The notes beneath the pieces were generated by a model that did not search any database, was not told where the DNA came from, and saw only the letters and a list, made by a program, of their open reading frames with translations. Below are positions 9,943 through 34,891 of a stretch of DNA of 64,000 nt, piece after piece. Source of the stretch: Deltaproteobacteria bacterium (lineage in GTDB: Bacteria; CG2-30-53-67); assembly GCA_013151235.1 (NCBI GenBank), contig JAADIO010000016.1, forward strand, positions 36,553 through 100,552, written 5' to 3'. Made by a program: the position numbers and the translations under genes. Within the stretch, counting starts at the first letter, position 1; the number at the start of each line of letters is the position of its first letter.

Positions 9943-11478
9943 ATGACAAACCAGACAAATACAGACATCAAGATATACTATTATTTGTTCCTGAGAAACC
10001 GGACACTCTTTTTCAGCCTTTTTGTGGCGGTGTTTACAACGGTCTCCCTGAGCAGCCTTTTCTTCCCCAAGGTCTATGAATCGACTACGGTGATCCGAGC
10101 ACAGAAGGAACAGCCCAATCCGATCGGAACCGGGAAACTGGTCCGGGAAGACCCGAGGTCGAACCTGAAAACCCTGGAAGAGATGATACTGAGCCGGACT
10201 TCGCTGAATCGTGCCATCAAGGAGATGAAACTGGACGGGGATATTGCCTCGGTTGAGCAGAGAGAACGTCTCTTGATGTCGGTCCGGAAGCGGGTCAAGA
10301 TCCGCAGTATCGGAGCGGGTCTTTTTTCCATTGCCTTTCAGGATCATGATCCCGAAGGGGCGATGCGTTTTACGCAGACCCTGTCGTCCATCTTTATTGA
10401 AGAAAGCCTTGCGCTCAAGCGAAATGAGGCATATTCTTCCGTCGGCTTTATCAAGAAACAGAAGGATTTATACAAAAAAAAGCTTCAGGCGTCCGAAGAA
10501 GCATTGAGGAAGTTCAAACTGGCCCACATTGATGAAATGCCTGGAAAAGAGAATGCCAGCCTGGTCCAGCTTCAGCGTCTGCGCGATACGCTGGCCTCGA
10601 CCTCGCTGGAGTTGCAGGAGGACATTCAAAAAAAAGAGCTGATTGCGAAACAGTTGTCCGGTGAAAAACCGATGGTGGTCTCCATGATGAGCGGAGGGGC
10701 GACTTCAACGGTAGACAAGATCAAGGTTCTGCAATTCCAGCTAAGTCAGCTCCTGGCGAATTATACGGAAAAACACCCTGATGTGATCCGGATTCGTTCG
10801 GAAATTGAAAAGCTAAAAAAGGAGGGAAGTGTCCCGGGGGCGAAGAGTGGACCGGGTCTCCCTCGGTCCGACGAATTTACGACGCTGAATCCGTTGCACC
10901 AGAAACTGAAGGAGAATCTGAATAACATCGAGATCAGTATCGGGACGCTGAAACACAAGGAGCAAATCCTGAAGGGAGAGATCCGGGAACTTGAAAAGAA
11001 GGTGCGGAGCATTCCGAATCGTGAAAAAGAACTCGTGGGACTTCAGCGGGATTATAATGTTAATGAAAAGATCTACCAGATGCTCCTGATGAAACTGCAG
11101 GAGGCTCGAATCTCAAAGGCGCTCGAAGTGAATCAGGGAGGAACCCGGTTCGAGGTTGTCGATCCGCCGAATCTTCCCGTTTTCCCGGTAAAACCGAACC
11201 TGCTCCATTTTCTTCTCGCGGGCCTGGCGCTGGGATGTGCCGCCGGCGCCGGCTCCATTTTTCTCAAGGACTATTTCAATTCATCGACCTGGGGGGTCCG
11301 TGAAGCCGAAGAGGTTTTTGGTCTGCCGGTTCTGGCGGCCGTCCCGGTGATTGAAACAGAGGAGAGTCTGCGAAAGAAAAAACACCGGCGGATCCAGTGG
11401 ATCCTGGGTTCTTTTTTGTTCCTGCTCTGTGTTGCGGGGACAATCGCCTTTGCCGTTTTCCATGTGTCAATCCGATGA
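9943..11478 (+). CDS. Exopolysaccharide chain-length protein, Wzz/GumC family (XrtA type)
   Basis: Inner-membrane polysaccharide co-polymerase that sets chain length and links to a tyrosine kinase. A first membrane segment lies near residues 25-45 (LFFSLFVAVFTTVSLSSLFF), a long periplasmic coiled coil fills the middle, and a second membrane segment is near residues 418-438 (LLHFLLAGLALGCAAGAGS) just after PNLPVFPVKPN, the usual proline-rich motif. A third hydrophobic stretch ends the protein (ILGSFLFLLCVAGTIAFAVF), which fits the XrtA-associated chain-length family better than short Wzz. It opens a five-gene run ending with the matching kinase. The kinase is a separate protein, as in Gram-positive CpsC/CpsD. 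Confidence 0.88.
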   Translation: MTNQTNTDIKIYYYLFLRNRTLFFSLFVAVFTTVSLSSLFFPKVYESTTVIRAQKEQPNPIGTGKLVREDPRSNLKTLEEMILSRTSLNRAIKEMKLDGDIASVEQRERLLMSVRKRVKIRSIGAGLFSIAFQDHDPEGAMRFTQTLSSIFIEESLALKRNEAYSSVGFIKKQKDLYKKKLQASEEALRKFKLAHIDEMPGKENASLVQLQRLRDTLASTSLELQEDIQKKELIAKQLSGEKPMVVSMMSGGATSTVDKIKVLQFQLSQLLANYTEKHPDVIRIRSEIEKLKKEGSVPGAKSGPGLPRSDEFTTLNPLHQKLKENLNNIEISIGTLKHKEQILKGEIRELEKKVRSIPNREKELVGLQRDYNVNEKIYQMLLMKLQEARISKALEVNQGGTRFEVVDPPNLPVFPVKPNLLHFLLAGLALGCAAGAGSIFLKDYFNSSTWGVREAEEVFGLPVLAAVPVIETEESLRKKKHRRIQWILGSFLFLLCVAGTIAFAVFHVSIR

Positions 11479-28207: not shown

Positions 28208-28258
28208 TTACAAGTTTTTTTTCAATCGGTTTTGCTTCCTTATTCCCGGAGGTTTCTA

Positions 28259-30946
28259 ATGAGAAAGATTATTGTCAGAGGTAGTTCCCGATGTCTGTTT
28301 CCTGTATTGCTCGTTATTCCCGTTCTTCTGATCTCTTCTTTTGCTTTTGCGGCCTCCTACCGGACCGTTCTGCAGCAGGACAGTCTTACCAAAATCGTTC
28401 TCAAAAACGGCCTGACCGTGGTCCTCTCCGAGAATCATGCGGCGCCCGTCGTTGCCTTCCAGATGTGGGTCAATGTCGGAAGCCGGAACGAGAGCGATGC
28501 CCAGGCAGGGATCTCCCATGTCTTTGAGCACATGCTCTTCAAGGGGACGGCGAAGCGGGGAGTGGGGGAGATTGCCCGTGAAGTCGAAGCGGCAGGCGGG
28601 AATATCAATGCCTACACCTCGAATGACCATACCGTCTACCACCTGGCTCTGGCGAGCCGGTACTTTGATGTGGGGCTTGATGTCTTGTCCGATGCCGTCC
28701 AGCACTCCGCTTTTGATCCGAAGGAACTGGCCAAAGAGGAGGAAGTCATCCTTGAGGAGTTCAAACGTTCCGAAGACATGCCGAGCCGTGTGCTTTCCAC
28801 AAAACTCTTTGAAACGGCTTACCGGGTCCACCCCTACCGGCGTCCGGTCATCGGTTATGTGAAGACCTTCAAGAAGCTCACCCGGAAGAATATTCTCGAC
28901 TATTTCCATGAGTGGTATGTCCCCAACAACATGACCCTCGTGGTGGTCGGGGATTTTTCCACGCCGAAGGTTCTCCCTTCCATTGTTCGGTCCTTTCAGG
29001 GGTTTGTCCCCCGCAAGAATCTTTTCCTGAGCGTTCCCCGGGAACCTGCACAGAGCCGGACCCGGGCCGTTGTCATCCGGAAAGAATCGAAGCAGGTCCT
29101 GTTCAATTTCGGTTATCATATTCCCGGTCTTCATGATCCGAAGAATCCGGCCTACGATCTGCTGGCGGCCATTCTCGGGCAGGGGAAGACCTCAAGGCTC
29201 TATCAGGAAGTCAAACGGAAACGGGAACTGGTCCATGCCGTCTCCGCCTATGCCTATACCCCGAACGATCCGGGGCTCTTTGTCGTGGAAGCCCGTCTGG
29301 ATGGGAAATATCTGAAGAAGACCCTCGGGGCGGTCCTGGACCAGATCGAACGAATCAAGCATGAGCCGGTCAGTGCCGAAGAACTCTACCGGGCACGGGT
29401 CGGGATCGAAAGCGATTTTATCTATAAGAAGGAGACGATGGAGGGGCAGGCGGGGAAATTCGGAGCCTTTGAATCCGATTTCGGTGATCCTCTGCACGAA
29501 AAAGTATATCTAAGCGAGCTTGCCTCCGTGACACCGGCCGATTTGACGGCGATCGCCCGGAAAATCTTCCGGCCGGAGAACCTGACCGTCTCCATTCTGA
29601 TCGATCCGAAGGAGCAACCCGGTCTGGATGCCGGAAAGATCCGGAAAATAGTACAGAAGTTGAACCGGGAAGCAGCAAGAGAATATGCGAAGCATAAAGA
29701 GACAAAACGGGGGGAGCCGGAGAAGATCGTCCTGTCCAACGGGATTCGACTGATCGTGAAGGAGAATCATGCCGTGCCGACGGTTGCCGTCAAAATTGCC
29801 TTCCCCGGAGGTGAACGGTACGAGACGGAACCGACCAGCGGACTCTATCACTTTATGGCTGCCATGCTGGATCGCGGGACGAAGAAACGGAGCGCGGATG
29901 AGATCGCCACCGAGATTGAAGAGATGGCCGGAAGCGTGAGCGGTTTTTCCGGCCGGAACAGTATTGGCGCGCAACTGTCGGTCTTGAGCCGGCATTTCGG
30001 GCAGGGTATGAACCTATTGGCTGATCTTGTACGCCATCCGGCCTTTGCCCCCGACGAGGTGGAAAAGACCCGAAAGGATATCCTTGCCGCCATTGTCCAT
30101 GAAGATGACCAGTTGAGCCGCCGGGTGGGAAATCTCTTCCGTAAGACGTTGTACAAAACTCATCCCTACCGGATGCGGCTGATCGGAAAGATGGCGACGG
30201 TGAGCCGTTTTACACCGGCGGAGTTGCGGGAGACCTACCGGCATGTGCTGAACCCGGCGCAGATGGTGATCGCCGTGGTGGGGGACGTTTCCCGGGAGGA
30301 AGCCGAGGCGAAAGTCCGGGAACTTTTCGGGACGATGAAGAAGATCGCCCCGGTGCAGCCGCACATCCTCCAGGAGGTGCCCCAGGAAAAAATCCGGGAA
30401 AGCGTGGAGAGGGTCAACCGTCAGCAGGCACACATGATCCTCGGTTTTTTAGGGACCACGGTGACTTCCGGGGATCGTTACCCCCTGATGATTTTGAGCA
30501 ATGTCCTGGCCGGTCAGGGGGGGAGGCTCTTCCGGGACCTTCGGGATAAAGAGAGCCTGGCCTATGTGGTCACCGCCTTTTCTCAGGAAGGAGTTGACCC
30601 CGGTTTCTTTGCCGCCTATATCGCATGCAGTCCGGAGAAGCTGGATGCCGCCCGTGCGGGAATCCTGAAGGAGCTGGCCCGGGTTCGGGATCAAAGGATC
30701 CCGGAGAATGAGATGAAACGGGCCCGGGAGAACCTGATCGGAAGTTTTGAAATTGGTTTGCAGACCAATGAGTCGATAGCTTCCACCATGGTCTTTGATG
30801 AACTCTATGGAAACGGCTTCGATGCCTACAAGGAATTTGCCCGGAAGATCGAAAAGGTTACGGCGAAAGACGTGCAGAAGGTTGCGGAAAGATATCTTGA
30901 CCTGACCCGCTATTCCGTGGCGCTTGTAAAACCGGGGGAGGAATAG
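28259..30946 (+). CDS. Two-domain M16 family zinc peptidase, exported
   Basis: An 895-residue periplasmic peptidase. A signal peptide (CLFPVLLVIPVLLISSFAFA) ends near residue 32. The first half has the inverted zinc motif HVFEHML (HXXEH) with the downstream Glu in EEEVILEEF. The second half repeats the M16 fold without the metal site: its matching segment reads YHFMAAML. This catalytic plus inactive pairing is the normal clamshell in one chain. GGAGG lies six bases before the ATG. It may degrade peptides from the envelope; no specific substrate is suggested by the neighbours. Confidence 0.92.
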   Translation: MRKIIVRGSSRCLFPVLLVIPVLLISSFAFAASYRTVLQQDSLTKIVLKNGLTVVLSENHAAPVVAFQMWVNVGSRNESDAQAGISHVFEHMLFKGTAKRGVGEIAREVEAAGGNINAYTSNDHTVYHLALASRYFDVGLDVLSDAVQHSAFDPKELAKEEEVILEEFKRSEDMPSRVLSTKLFETAYRVHPYRRPVIGYVKTFKKLTRKNILDYFHEWYVPNNMTLVVVGDFSTPKVLPSIVRSFQGFVPRKNLFLSVPREPAQSRTRAVVIRKESKQVLFNFGYHIPGLHDPKNPAYDLLAAILGQGKTSRLYQEVKRKRELVHAVSAYAYTPNDPGLFVVEARLDGKYLKKTLGAVLDQIERIKHEPVSAEELYRARVGIESDFIYKKETMEGQAGKFGAFESDFGDPLHEKVYLSELASVTPADLTAIARKIFRPENLTVSILIDPKEQPGLDAGKIRKIVQKLNREAAREYAKHKETKRGEPEKIVLSNGIRLIVKENHAVPTVAVKIAFPGGERYETEPTSGLYHFMAAMLDRGTKKRSADEIATEIEEMAGSVSGFSGRNSIGAQLSVLSRHFGQGMNLLADLVRHPAFAPDEVEKTRKDILAAIVHEDDQLSRRVGNLFRKTLYKTHPYRMRLIGKMATVSRFTPAELRETYRHVLNPAQMVIAVVGDVSREEAEAKVRELFGTMKKIAPVQPHILQEVPQEKIRESVERVNRQQAHMILGFLGTTVTSGDRYPLMILSNVLAGQGGRLFRDLRDKESLAYVVTAFSQEGVDPGFFAAYIACSPEKLDAARAGILKELARVRDQRIPENEMKRARENLIGSFEIGLQTNESIASTMVFDELYGNGFDAYKEFARKIEKVTAKDVQKVAERYLDLTRYSVALVKPGEE

Positions 30947-31027: not shown

Positions 31028-31057
31028 TTGACATAACAGGAGTATTGGTTCTATAAT
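31028..31057 (+). promoter_or_regulatory. Strong sigma-70 promoter of the riboswitch leader
   Basis: Consensus TTGACA (31028-31033) and TATAAT (31052-31057) are separated by 18 bases, placing the start near 31064, just before the riboswitch. Confidence 0.85.
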
Positions 31058-31066
31058 GTAAGAAAT

Positions 31067-31160
31067 AACGAGATAATCCACCGATAAAGGCGACCCTGCG
31101 GGGGAGCAAAGCCATGGGCTGAAAAATCAGCATTCATGGCTGCCGAAGTGGATAAGGTGA
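31067..31160 (+). promoter_or_regulatory. GEMM-I riboswitch (c-di-GMP or 3',3'-cGAMP)
   Basis: The RNA reads in the plus direction. P1 is ATCCAC/GTGGAT. P2 is CCC-TGCG-GGG, followed by GAGCAAAGCC, the highly conserved GEMM core. P3 is CCATG/CATGG then GCTGA/TCAGC, closed by AAAA, and ends in GGCTGCCGAAG, the second conserved block. Whether it prefers c-di-GMP or cyclic AMP-GMP cannot be decided here. A terminator follows. The 3' strand of P1 (GGATAAGG) can also pair with the 5' arm of that terminator (CCTATCC), so ligand binding should favour termination. Confidence 0.85.
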
Positions 31161-31167
31161 GACTTCA

Positions 31168-31205
31168 ATCGCCTATCCATCTTTCTCTGGTGGATAGGCG
31201 ATTTT
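31168..31205 (+). terminator. Riboswitch-controlled terminator
   Basis: AATCGCCTATCCA and TGGATAGGCGATT form a perfect 13-base stem ending in a T run. The 5' arm overlaps the sequence able to pair with the riboswitch P1 strand. Confidence 0.85.
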
Positions 31206-31227
31206 CGTTATATTCTCGAGCTCCTCC

Positions 31228-31263
31228 TGACAGGTCGGCAGGAAGTATTCTGCCGGCCTGTCA
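31228..31263. other. Strong hairpin downstream of the riboswitch terminator
   Basis: TGACAGGTCGGCAG and CTGCCGGCCTGTCA pair over 14 bases with one G-U, around an 8-base loop. It is not followed by a T run. The region from here to vapB (31445) holds no gene on the plus strand. Confidence 0.7.
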
Positions 31264-31408
31264 CCCTCCTTTGCGGTGAATGATCTTTGCATTCGTCTTT
31301 CGGTTTTCCCCCATGTTCTCCTGTGTCAAGCCTGCCTGTGTGTGGTATAGACTGAACAGGTGTTTGGACCTGCCTGGAAAACCGGGGGAAGTCCGAGCTT
31401 CTTTCCTC

Positions 31409-31437
31409 TTGACATGGATGTATATATGATGCATATT
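31409..31437 (+). promoter_or_regulatory. Promoter/operator of vapBC
   Basis: TTGACA and CATATT are 17 bases apart, so transcription would start within a few bases of the vapB ATG: an almost leaderless message. The -10 region lies within a direct repeat TGATGCAT-AT-TGATGCAT, a likely site for repression by the VapBC complex. Confidence 0.6.
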
Positions 31438-31444
31438 GATGCAT

Positions 31445-31642
31445 ATGAGAACAACATTAAACATTGATGACGACATCATTAAAAAAGCATCAAAGCTCAC
31501 GGGTGTGAAGGAAAAAACATCTCTGGTGAGGTTGGGGCTTGAGGCTTTAATTGCTCGTGAAAGCGCCAAGAGGCTTGCTGAACTTGGCGGCTCGGAAAAA
31601 TCCCTTAAGCCTGTTCCAAGAAGAAGAATATCCAGGAATTAA
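31445..31642 (+). CDS. vapB: VapB-type antitoxin
   Basis: A 65-residue protein starting MRTTLNIDDDIIKKASKLTG, the DNA-binding N-terminus of the DUF2191 VapB family. The basic C-terminal tail (KPVPRRRISRN) would wrap the toxin. It ends two bases before the PIN-domain gene. Base composition is clearly richer in A and T than in neighbouring genes, which suggests acquisition. ATG nine bases upstream is possible but overlaps the promoter. Confidence 0.85.
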   Translation: MRTTLNIDDDIIKKASKLTGVKEKTSLVRLGLEALIARESAKRLAELGGSEKSLKPVPRRRISRN

Positions 31643-31644
31643 GT

Positions 31645-32004
31645 ATGGTTCTGGTAGATACTTCAATTTGGATATCTCATTTCAGGGATAACAATCAGCG
31701 CCTCAAAAAGCTTTTGATAGATGAATCGGTAGCATGCCATCCTTTTGTCATTGGTGAGTTGGCCTGCGGTAACATGAAGAACAGAAAAGAAGTTATCTCC
31801 CTCCTCCAATCTCTTCCTCAGGCCCTTGTTGCAGAGCATGATGAAATTCTTGCATTGATTGAGCACAAGAAACTAATGGGCGCCGGAATAGGCCTTATTG
31901 ACGTTCATATATTGGCATCCGCACTGTTGACAAATTTGCCTTTATGGACAGCCGACAAAAGGTTGAGTGCATCTGCAATGAAATTGAATATTTTATATAG
32001 ATAA
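31645..32004 (+). CDS. vapC: VapC PIN-domain ribonuclease toxin
   Basis: Mg-dependent RNase of the type II VapBC system. Acidic residues are seen in VDTSIW, the Glu of VIGELACG, and IGLIDVHIL and TADKRL. It has the normal VapC length (119). It is paired with vapB, and is AT-rich like its partner. Confidence 0.9.
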   Translation: MVLVDTSIWISHFRDNNQRLKKLLIDESVACHPFVIGELACGNMKNRKEVISLLQSLPQALVAEHDEILALIEHKKLMGAGIGLIDVHILASALLTNLPLWTADKRLSASAMKLNILYR

Positions 32005-32025
32005 CCTATTCCCCTTTTTTTTCGC

Positions 32026-32053
32026 TTGACAAAATCGGTCGACTTATTATAAT
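32026..32053 (+). promoter_or_regulatory. Promoter of the Rrf2/desulfurase operon
   Basis: TTGACA and TATAAT are 16 bases apart. The spacer contains AATCGGTCGACTTATTATAAT, similar to Rrf2/IscR-type sites that overlap -10 regions, so the first gene may repress its own operon. Confidence 0.65.
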
Positions 32054-32095
32054 CAAGACGAAGAAGACATTTTTTATCCTGTTTTGGAGGGTTTG

Positions 32096-32515
32096 GTGAA
32101 ACTGACGCGGGGCGGCGAATATGGAATTCGGGGAATGCTTTATCTGGCCATGCAGCCGGAGTCCGCAGTTACCCTTTTAAGTGAAATTTCTACGGTCGAA
32201 AAGATTCCCGAAAGTTATTTGGCGAAGATTTTTCAAACGCTGACGAAGGTCGGCCTGGTCCGTTCCCACCGTGGTTTCAAGGGGGGCTATTCATTAGGGC
32301 GGTCGTCCGGTGAGATTACCGTCAAGGATATCATTGAAGGGGTAGAAGGGCCGATTGTTCTGAATCATTGTCTCCAGAAGGTGAGTAACTGTTCCGAGGG
32401 ATACCGATGCAAGATCCAGAATGTCTGGAAAGATGCACAGGATGCCATGATCGGGGTCCTTGACGGAACGACCCTTGCAGATTTGGTGAAAGAGACCGCG
32501 GCGGGTCAGCCGTGA
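32096..32515 (+). CDS. Rrf2-family transcriptional regulator
   Basis: IscR-like winged-helix regulator of 139 residues: the helix-turn-helix is LSEISTVEKIPESYLAKIFQ and the wing KGGYSLGRS. The C-terminal cysteines CLQKVSNCSEGYRC fit the Cys ligands of an Fe-S cluster, so it may sense Fe-S status. GTG start with GGAGG five bases upstream. The next gene is a cysteine desulfurase, the usual client of this regulator. Confidence 0.92.
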   Translation: MKLTRGGEYGIRGMLYLAMQPESAVTLLSEISTVEKIPESYLAKIFQTLTKVGLVRSHRGFKGGYSLGRSSGEITVKDIIEGVEGPIVLNHCLQKVSNCSEGYRCKIQNVWKDAQDAMIGVLDGTTLADLVKETAAGQP

Positions 32516-32602
32516 AGGGAGTGTCCCGGCCCATAACCTTTCCGATGGAGAAGTGATGCCGGCAGTTTCGAGTGAATATTGTGATGAATCAAGGAGGGTG
32601 TT

Positions 32603-33778
32603 ATGAGCAGCAGAACAGTTTATCTCGATCATGCGGCGGCAACCCGTCCCTATCCCGAAGTGATCGAAGCGATGCAGCCTTACTTTCTGGAACATTTCGG
32701 GAATCCCATGAGCTTCCATAAATACGGCAGCGCTCCCCGGGCGGCACTGGAGGAGGCCCGGAGCGCCGTAGCCGGCCTGATCCATGCGAAATCCGAGGAG
32801 ATCTTCTTCACCGCCTCCGGGACGGAGTCAAATAACTTTGCCGTCAAAGGGGTAGCCCTGGCCCTGCAGAAGAAGGGAAAGCATATAATTACCTCGGCCA
32901 TCGAACATTACGGAATTCATCATTCCTGCAAGATGCTGGAGCGGATGGGGTTCGAGACGACCTATCTGCCGGTCGACGAATTCGGTCGGGTCGATCCGGA
33001 AGAGGTCGCAAAGGCACTCCGGGAGGATACGATCCTGGTCTCGATTATGCTGGGGAACCACGAGGTCGGCACGCTCCAGCCGATCCGGGAGATCGCCAAG
33101 ATCACCCGGGCGAGAAAGGTGACCCTCCATACCGATGCCCGGATGGCCGTTGGGCACATTCCCGTTGATGTGGAAGCATTGGGGGTGGATCTTTTGACCC
33201 TCTCCGGGCAGCACTTTTACGGCCCCAAGGGATCGGCCGCCCTTTATATTAAGAAGGGGGTTCGCATTCAACCGTTAATCCACGGCGGGATCCAGGAACA
33301 GGGGCGCCGTGCGGGAACGGAGAACGTTCCGGCCATCGTTGGATTAGGCAAGGCGGCGGAGATCGCCTCGGAAAAGGTTGCCGGGGAACAGGCGAGGCTG
33401 GCGGCCCTTCGGGACAGGCTGGAGCAGGGTCTGACCGCAAAGATTGATGCCGTGAAGGTGAACGGCCATCCTGAATATCGGCTTCCCCACCTGCTGAATA
33501 TCTGTATCAATTACGTAGAGGGAGAGGGGATGATCATGATGATGGTTGCAAAGGGGATTATGGCGGCCAGCGGATCGGCCTGTTCCTCCAAGGCGCTCAA
33601 GGCCTCCCATGTACTCACGGCGATGGGGGTGGACCATGCCATGGCCCAGGGGTCGATTCTCTTCAGCCTGGGCCGGGAGACGGCGGAGGAGGAGATCGAC
33701 TATGTCGTGGCGGAGATGCCGCCCATTGTCGAACGTCTCCGGATGATGTCGCCCATCTACCAGCAAAAAATGGGATAG
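32603..33778 (+). CDS. IscS/NifS-like cysteine desulfurase lacking the PLP lysine
   Basis: Family assignment is clear: YLDHAAATRP, GTESNNFA, EHYGIHHSC, HTDARMAVGHIPVDV, QGRRAGTENVPAIVG, and a mobile-loop Cys in SGSACSSKALK. The segment that normally reads SGHK-x-YGPKG, whose Lys binds PLP, reads SGQHFYGPKG (near base 33210), so His replaces Lys. The Gln that normally follows TDAA is also changed (DARM). Some archaeal IscS-type proteins are reported to lack this Lys, so a related variant chemistry or a scaffold role is possible. Neighbours are an Rrf2 regulator, DsrE and TusA proteins. GGAGG precedes the ATG. Confidence 0.88.
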   Translation: MSSRTVYLDHAAATRPYPEVIEAMQPYFLEHFGNPMSFHKYGSAPRAALEEARSAVAGLIHAKSEEIFFTASGTESNNFAVKGVALALQKKGKHIITSAIEHYGIHHSCKMLERMGFETTYLPVDEFGRVDPEEVAKALREDTILVSIMLGNHEVGTLQPIREIAKITRARKVTLHTDARMAVGHIPVDVEALGVDLLTLSGQHFYGPKGSAALYIKKGVRIQPLIHGGIQEQGRRAGTENVPAIVGLGKAAEIASEKVAGEQARLAALRDRLEQGLTAKIDAVKVNGHPEYRLPHLLNICINYVEGEGMIMMMVAKGIMAASGSACSSKALKASHVLTAMGVDHAMAQGSILFSLGRETAEEEIDYVVAEMPPIVERLRMMSPIYQQKMG

Positions 33779-33829
33779 GGGTAATAATCGATTTTCATGA
33801 GGCCGTCCGGGAGAGGGGATGGGAAGAAT

Positions 33830-34225
33830 ATGACCGAAAAGATGGCGATGGTGGTGTCGACCAACGAAATCGACAAGTTGATTACCATATTCAACCTGGC
33901 TTTGGGAGGGGCCTCCATGGGAATGGAGGTGATTCTCTTCTTCTCCTTTCACGGCCTGGAGCTTCTGAAAAAGGACAAATCCGGCGACAGCTATCAGAAA
34001 CCGGATCGATCCCTGGAAAAGATGATGGCCCACCCCAAGTTCCCCTCGATTGATCAGATGGTCATCATGTGCAAGGAAATGGGGGTCAAATTTATTGCCT
34101 GTTCCCAGTCGATGGAGTTCATGGGGCTCACCCGGGAGGATCTCCTTCCCGTGGTCGACCGTGTGGCCGGAGTGGCGACCTTTCTGGCCGATGCGGGGGA
34201 TGCAAAGATTAATCTCATGCTGTGA
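33830..34225 (+). CDS. DsrE/DsrF-like protein
   Basis: A 131-residue protein of the DsrE/F family, which binds or relays persulfide sulfur or acts as small peroxiredoxin-like partners. It starts MTEKMAMVVST and has NLALGGASMGMEVILFFSF and two Cys in VIMCKEMGVKFIACSQSM, matching the family pattern. GGAAG precedes the ATG. It overlaps the TusA-like reading frame upstream start, pointing to coupled translation and a sulfur-relay role with it. Confidence 0.82.
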   Translation: MTEKMAMVVSTNEIDKLITIFNLALGGASMGMEVILFFSFHGLELLKKDKSGDSYQKPDRSLEKMMAHPKFPSIDQMVIMCKEMGVKFIACSQSMEFMGLTREDLLPVVDRVAGVATFLADAGDAKINLML

Positions 34226-34239
34226 ATGAGGAGATGTCG

Positions 34240-34521
34240 ATGAAGACCAATGCAATCAAGGCCGATGTCGTGCTGGACGCCTTCGGCCTGATCTGCCCGA
34301 TGCCGATTGCCAAGACCTGTCAGGCGATCAAGAACATGGAGGTGGGACAGGTGCTGGAAGTGATTGCCGATGATGAGGGGATCGTGGAGGATATGCCCAG
34401 CTGGTGCGACACAACAGGCAACGAATTCCTGGGCATTACCGAGGAGGACGGTGAATTCCATGCCCTCGTTCGGAAGCGGGCCGATGAGAAGGAAAAGTGC
34501 GATCGTCCTCCCTGTAATTAG
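34240..34521 (+). CDS. TusA-like sulfurtransferase
   Basis: The sulfur carrier motif is LICPMPIAKT, with the acceptor Cys near residue 19, then GQVLEVIADDEGIVEDMPSW, the usual TusA fold. A short Cys-containing tail (CDRPPCN) is unusual. The ATG follows GAGGAG by six bases; a GTG at 34222 overlapping the previous stop is the alternative. The chain Rrf2, desulfurase, DsrE, TusA suggests one sulfur-transfer route. Confidence 0.9.
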   Translation: MKTNAIKADVVLDAFGLICPMPIAKTCQAIKNMEVGQVLEVIADDEGIVEDMPSWCDTTGNEFLGITEEDGEFHALVRKRADEKEKCDRPPCN

Positions 34522-34558
34522 TTTGGAATGCCTTTAGGAGGAACGACCGGGAGAGTTG

Positions 34559-34891
34559 ATGGCCAATAAGAGAAGACATAAACGAAGAATCAATCGAAGT
34601 ACGATCAAATTCGGAGAAGAGGTCTGCGACAAAACGGCCTTTACAAGTAATCTGACCCCTGAGGGTTTCTTCCTCCGGACCAATCGGGTCTATCCCCCCG
34701 GCAGGACCCTCCGCTTCGAGTTTCGCTCTCCTGCAGGGGAGATTGTGAACGTTACGGGGAAGGTAGTCCATGCCACGCGTGTTCCCATCCATTTTGCCGG
34801 TTTGCGCAAGAACGGCATGGGGATTGAGATCGTTGGGGAGAATGAAGCCTACCGGAATCTCCTGGAGTCCCTGAAAATCGGCGGAAAGTAG
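34559..34891 (+). CDS. PilZ domain protein
   Basis: A stand-alone PilZ domain that binds c-di-GMP. The RRHKRR motif at the N-terminus and the (D/N)xSxxG-like segment SNLTPEGFFLRTN match the two ligand-binding blocks, although the second block is modified. Ends in a short helix. No effector partner is adjacent, so it may act by binding other proteins. Confidence 0.82.
   Translation: MANKRRHKRRINRSTIKFGEEVCDKTAFTSNLTPEGFFLRTNRVYPPGRTLRFEFRSPAGEIVNVTGKVVHATRVPIHFAGLRKNGMGIEIVGENEAYRNLLESLKIGGK

Follow-up and report, generated by a model that had tools for sequence, protein, structure and literature searches.

Analysis of the window, the whole 64-kb stretch of DNA from the source genome (G000), confirmed the presence of a promoter consensus, a GEMM-like aptamer and a terminator-like hairpin in succession behind an M16 peptidase gene; these elements and the other window features described below lie on the plus strand. 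Very probably, the element is a GEMM-I-type leader from behind which a sulfide quinone reductase (SQR) gene was likely deleted almost exactly, leaving a predicted c-di-GMP OFF switch without a gene of its own. The leader is most likely a leftover that no longer has a dedicated target.

The predicted promoter of the leader, which is of the sigma-70 type (31028..31057) and reads TTGACA-18-TATAAT, as stated in the original prediction, agreed with the consensus at 12 of 12 positions, and agreement at 11 to 12 of 12 positions was found across all six family genomes. The GEMM-I-like aptamer (31076..31153) consists of an extended P1 (31076-31083 with 31144-31153; AUCCACCG pairs with CGAAGUGGAU), a short P2 (31090-31107) and P3 (31110-31141). 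The RF03167 model (c-di-GMP-I-GGC) matched at 31080-31148 with 32.0 bits against a cut-off of 59 (E 1e-5 on 501 nt and 1.3e-5 genome-wide), and it was aligned over its full length (positions 1-80 of 80), with an 8-nt stretch of the model absent from the window. The search with RF01051, which had been set as a test of the GEMM assignment, also returned a match, with 26.7 bits against a gathering score of 35 (E 0.004 genome-wide). At the Rfam gathering thresholds, no riboswitch match was detected in the whole 64-kb window. The short P2 is the likely main cause of these scores below the cut-offs. In the c-di-GMP-I class, P2 is capped by a GNRA tetraloop that docks into P3; by eye, the P2 loop was not GNRA in the window or in any of the other five orthologs.

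The aptamer is followed by an intrinsic-terminator-like hairpin (31167..31203) comprising 15 pairs and then TTCGTT. A 13-base terminator stem with a T run had been proposed at this place; the hairpin was borne out, but its stem is longer than proposed and the T tract behind it is short and interrupted (TTTTCGTT), compared with 9, 8 and 7 T in G001, G002 and G004, respectively. The stem, which is at least as long as those of the relatives, absorbs two of the four T in the window. Because the T tract is interrupted, termination, which is a prediction here, may be leakier than in the relatives. The fold of the complete leader RNA was better than those of 200 of 200 shuffled sequences (z -6.0), and after removal of the terminator it was better than 198 of 200 (z -3.1). 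In the minimum-energy fold, the 5' and 3' ends of the leader RNA pair with each other. The three-helix junction and the conserved core were both found, with support from covariation: 8 pairs were altered on both sides (five in P3 and three in the terminator, the latter counted among four leaders), a value reached in 1 of 500 shuffles, while slid registers gave 0-2.

Seven other genomes of the class served as relatives: G001 of the same genus (g1, together with G000), G002 and G004 (genus g2) and G003 and G005 (genus g3) of the same family, and G006 and G007 of another family. A BLAST search with the leader gave a match in each of G001 to G005 (weakest in G003, E 0.0017) and chance-level matches only in G006 and G007, and no match was obtained in a plasmid search. 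Together with the RF03167 match, these five orthologous leaders, of which that of G003 is weak, bear out the GEMM core of the original prediction. The leader of G001 was 82-84% identical to that of the window. A covariance model, R1, was built from the five intact aptamers (G000, G001, G002, G004 and G005), with G003 left as a non-member. By construction R1 scored 90.9-110.3 bits in its member genomes, at one locus each (97.6 bits for the window; the G001 locus lies on two overlapping contigs). In G003 its score was 46.7 bits, and nowhere else in the 386 genomes searched did it exceed 43.4 bits; the weaker matches, in thirteen further genomes, are presumably ordinary GEMMs. In G000, from whose own fold the structure was derived, every one of the 40 pairs counted is formed. 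Of the 26 aptamer pairs, 25, 25 and 24 form in G001, G002 and G004, 23 in G005 and 18 in G003, where the aptamer is degraded and P1 has 5 of its 8 pairs.

Comparison of the same interval in the relatives, recommended earlier as a way of finding a lost gene, revealed an SQR gene behind the leader in G001, G002 and G004. The M16 peptidase gene of the window (28232..30946) served as the synteny anchor; its 77% identical ortholog in G001 (contig C250) stands directly before the leader, which is followed by an RBS-like stretch and an ORF of 418 amino acids encoding SQR. The two G001 contigs concerned share a 244-nt overlap that contains a single mismatch, which establishes the locus order M16-leader-SQR. 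In G004 and G002, the leader likewise leads directly into an SQR ORF (81% identical). The three proteins scored 557, 555 and 556 bits (G001, G004 and G002) with NF049943, the NCBIfam model of type III sulfide quinone reductase (cut-off 525). The SQR gene is followed in G002 by genes for Rrf2, a class-V aminotransferase of the cysteine desulfurase type, an IscU-like ORF (by eye), DsrE and TusA, in G004 by Rrf2 and desulfurase genes, with a PilZ ORF further downstream in the cluster, and in G001 by an Rrf2 gene.

No SQR ortholog was found in G000 (99% complete), which contains only two paralogs of 36-37% identity and one 21% match elsewhere, and a tblastn search for an SQR remnant in the window (31200-32100) gave chance-level pieces only (best E 0.75). 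Similarly, SQR was not found in G003 and G005, where partial matches of 28-29% were the only ones obtained. The leaders form a series with SQR (G001, G002 and G004) and without SQR (G000, G003 and G005). Type III SQR was present in 44 of the 386 genomes at E 1e-60, and 23 scored above the cut-off. Whereas the orthologs of the lost gene resemble known type III SQR in exceeding the curated cut-off, they differ from the 20 other loci above it, none of which has a GEMM within the 1.5-kb flanks, either at the Rfam cut-off or with R1. Five SQR loci taken from genome contigs (L094 without upstream sequence) also gave no GEMM at the Rfam cut-off or with R1; since the Rfam cut-off likewise misses the leaders already known from L091 and L092, R1 is the better test. 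As far as searched, the pairing of GEMM and SQR seems to be confined to the family of the source genome, and no report joining sulfide quinone, riboswitch and c-di-GMP was found in the literature searched.

The junction of the putative deletion was placed at 31204..31213, the site at which the 418-aa SQR gene of G001 stands between flanking homologous blocks. The block following SQR in G001 was recovered in the window at 31214..31276 (88.9% identity over 63 nt); it starts 10 nt past the terminator stem in the window and after the SQR stop codon in G001. Because this block nearly abuts the terminator, SQR seems to have been excised between the terminator and the block. In G001, the hairpin of the block is followed by an HD-domain gene; the window has vapBC in that place, and no HD ortholog was found in it (best match 38%). 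The earlier proposal that the controlled gene was replaced by vapBC is thus supported as regards the loss of the gene but imprecise as regards the replacement, as SQR appears to have been excised and vapBC occupies the site of the HD gene. The g3 genomes (G003 and G005) read leader, hairpin and HD gene, without SQR, and the Rrf2 gene at the locus in G003 is broken by a frame change, which is taken as a sign of a former sulfur operon there.

The hairpin within this block (31229-31262) has about 13 pairs, is flanked by CTCCTCC and CCCTCC, and is present with or without SQR. Its exact pattern was found once each in G000, G001, G003 and G005 (four of the six family genomes), always at the leader locus; it is absent from G002 and G004, where a longer-loop version was seen by eye after SQR. 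A dispersed REP-like repeat was ruled out by this single-copy occurrence at the leader locus only. Between G000 and G001, the hairpin block (88.9%) is conserved at least as well as the riboswitch (82-84%). By eye, the stretch separating the terminator from the hairpin contains an ORF of 30 codons in G005 and G003 (L073, about 9970-10065; corresponding site in L074); it has an RBS-like GAGGGG, and its two versions are similar at the ends and different in the middle.

The leader RNA of the window bears a GEMM but has no downstream ORF of its own. In the interval from 31205 to 31436, the longest plus-strand ORF starts at 31280 and comprises 49 codons, and no RBS was seen for it; the leader is separated from vapBC by the T-poor hairpin (31229-31262) and a weak terminator-like site (31275-31297; 8 pairs, 3 of them G-C). 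The next genes are vapB (31436..31642; Pfam VapB_antitoxin, 61.4 bits), an antitoxin gene, and vapC (31645..32004; Pfam PIN, 43.2 bits), a PIN-domain gene. The gene-free gap of about 240 bases and the separate promoter and AT-rich composition of vapB, all noted in the original prediction, were recovered: vapB starts about 230 nt past the terminator and has a promoter-like site (10 of 12 positions), and vapBC has a G+C content of 0.415 versus 0.545 for the window. A vapBC pair long regulated by the leader had been named as an outcome that would speak against an orphan; in the five family relatives, the leader is never followed by vapBC. VapC homologs occur elsewhere in the genomes (54% in G005; weaker in G001, G002 and G004). 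By eye, the vapB promoter-like site overlaps an inverted repeat (ATGATGCATATTGATGCATAT; window 31409-31445), which is a likely autoregulatory operator.

Behind vapBC lies a sulfur operon (32084..34521) encoding an Rrf2 regulator, a NifS-like cysteine desulfurase, a DsrE2-like protein and TusA. Its promoter (32026..32053) agreed with the consensus at 12 of 12 positions, and the same agreement was found in all four genomes whose Rrf2 gene at this place is intact (G000, G001, G002 and G004). Given this promoter and the promoter-like site of vapB, nothing clearly depends on the leader. A PilZ-domain gene follows tusA (34556..34891; Pfam PilZ, 26.3 bits, cut-off 22.5), and its place beside the sulfur genes is a second possible link of c-di-GMP to sulfur metabolism.

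A candidate antiterminator was predicted at 31148..31180, in which the 3' strand of P1 (GUGGAUAAGGUG) pairs with the 5' arm of the terminator (CGCCUAUCCAU; duplex -15.9 kcal/mol), a pairing that had been anticipated from the sequence. The 3' strand of P1 is thus common to P1 and the candidate antiterminator. With only the 5' arm of the terminator made, the two states differed by 1.0, 2.3, 0.4 and 1.7 kcal/mol in G000, G001, G002 and G004, and the antiterminator was slightly favoured in all four leaders in which both states could be forced; these energies cover four of the six leaders, as G005 and G003 were not forceable into P1. One change in G000 disrupts a pair of the antiterminator register that the leaders share, but extra pairs are gained beyond that register. 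Such near-equal states are the balance expected of a switch tipped by its ligand, from which we infer that the switch would be OFF with ligand. Binding of the ligand would stabilize P1 and release the 5' arm of the terminator, so that transcription would stop, and without ligand the 3' strand of P1 would form the antiterminator and allow read-through. As the aptamer, the balance between P1 and antiterminator and the terminator all look intact, a working OFF switch is predicted, with no dedicated gene to control. Today the promoter would give a terminated transcript about 140 nt long, and low c-di-GMP would result in read-through toward vapBC.

The ligand of the aptamer is likely c-di-GMP. The specificity positions, read by eye off the alignments with the Vc2 numbering, would be G, A and C, at what we take to be G20, A47 and C92; G, A and C at these three positions are the pattern of c-di-GMP. 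Within GCAAAGCC, an A of the window corresponds to G in the RF03167 consensus, and by that base the window is therefore not an RF03167 variant. In Geobacter, the base at nucleotide 20 is linked to the ligand, A to cGAMP and G to c-di-GMP, and an A-to-G change turns the selectivity from cGAMP to c-di-GMP (PMC6456294). As a ligand of the window aptamer, cGAMP is disfavoured by the G directly 5' of P2, which we take to be nucleotide 20.

We infer that the direction of change at the locus was deletion. The M16 tree grouped g2 with g3 (support 91/67, weak, with a long outgroup), which favours an ancestral SQR lost twice; with the weak resolution of the family tree, SQR could formally have been gained in g1 and g2, and this counts against the deletion. 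As the genus is represented by just one further genome (G001), the deletion is not datable. Among the polarised changes in the leader, 10 were specific to G000 and 2 to G001 in 128 columns (one-sided p 0.02 at even rates), compared with 11 and 2 in 131 columns of an earlier alignment. The M16 protein branch is also longer in G000 than in G001 (0.22 vs 0.12), and with this branch length allowed for, the excess has p 0.15; relaxed constraint or decay of the G000 leader is accordingly not claimed. That the G000 aptamer has no clear decay fits recent loss of the gene and retained function equally.

The leader shares with the GEMM-I riboswitches (Rfam clan CL00126; RF01051 and RF03167) the P1-P2-P3 junction, the core of GCAAAGCC and GGCUGCCGAAG and a terminator-type expression platform. 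It differs from them in its short P2 without a GNRA tetraloop and its scores below the cut-offs, and also in having SQR behind it in relatives and no gene here. The merRNA of Bdellovibrio bacteriovorus is a massively expressed RNA of 445 nt that contains a c-di-GMP riboswitch and has no conserved ORF downstream (PMC3627812). The window RNA resembles it as a GEMM RNA without a downstream ORF, but its length predicted from the sequence is about 140 nt and its lost gene is traceable. A T-box of B. thuringiensis YBT-1518 cut off from its canonical gene has been treated in the context of riboswitches that act in antisense near transposase genes (PMC9943018). The two cases are alike in that relatives retain the canonical gene and one genome has lost the arrangement, and they differ in that the post-gene block of the window almost abuts the terminator (PMC9943018).

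Five other GEMMs above the RF01051 cut-off were found in G000. The best-scoring GEMM of the genome (G000:C6; L066 9581-9666; 65 bits) carries a terminator-like hairpin; its strand is free of genes for 1.9 kb, the closest gene (256 nt off) is convergent, and the element is possibly a second orphan. Tandem GEMMs stand before a large secreted-protein gene (L069 5248-5330 and 5440-5536), and similarly spaced pairs, about 110-133 nt apart, occur in G001:C50, G002:C144, G005:C4 and G005:C19.

The intactness of the promoter consensus, aptamer and terminator hairpin, with a stem at least as long as those of the relatives, could also indicate a stand-alone c-di-GMP-binding small RNA, a buffer or trans-acting RNA like merRNA, that was kept after the gene was lost. 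In keeping with this, the aptamer is spared by 8 of the 10 G000-specific changes, the two ends of the RNA pair in the minimum-energy fold, and the G000:C6 GEMM likewise has no near same-strand gene. We nevertheless consider such a function unlikely, as the same intactness is also expected after recent loss and the gene-less leader of G003 is degraded. Furthermore, cis control is the rule, with a same-strand gene within 300 nt at 32 of 39 family GEMMs (a count made with our own gene finder, in which vapBC was not called and vapB would be 288 nt from the aptamer; the weak matches G003:C83 and G004:C146, E >0.04, and tandem partners are left out, and the halves of the G001 locus count as one). 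The corresponding scenario, the birth of a merRNA-type RNA, is also doubtful; a precise gene deletion would have freed a riboswitch that ancestrally tied c-di-GMP to sulfide oxidation, with gene-linked leaders (G001, G002 and G004), largely intact orphans (G000 and G005) and a decayed orphan (G003) as stages. It is less probable still that the switch has been re-used, so that vapBC and perhaps the sulfur operon are now driven by read-through when c-di-GMP is low. The balance between P1 and antiterminator persists, and the first genes reached on this strand are vapBC, with only the weak terminator-like site and the T-poor hairpin intervening. However, vapB has its own promoter-like site, and vapBC is low in G+C and missing from the leader locus in the five family relatives. 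For the sulfur operon, the read-through originally suggested is weakened by its own 12/12 promoter in all four genomes with an intact Rrf2 gene.

A gene-less ancestral leader, with SQR gained in g1 and g2 and lost or never gained in G000, would account for the leader-hairpin-HD gene order without SQR in the g3 genomes, but this history is very improbable, given that the operon linked to SQR has left an Rrf2 pseudogene in G003, that terminator-bearing leaders normally stand before genes, and that the weak grouping of g2 with g3 in the M16 tree would require two gains at one spot. A chance likeness to GEMM riboswitches would agree with the lack of a match at curated cut-offs; it is next to excluded by the genome-wide E of 1.3e-5, the orthologs in five genomes, the compensatory changes and the conservation across genera.

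In summary, a GEMM-I-type leader probably left behind by deletion of SQR provides, together with its orthologs, a natural series for the fate of a riboswitch after gene loss: with the gene, without the gene but kept, and without the gene and decayed. The group also illustrates that GEMMs with a short P2 can drop below the Rfam cut-offs and so escape routine annotation. For the biology of this family of uncultured bacteria, the locus points to control of sulfide oxidation by c-di-GMP through SQR.
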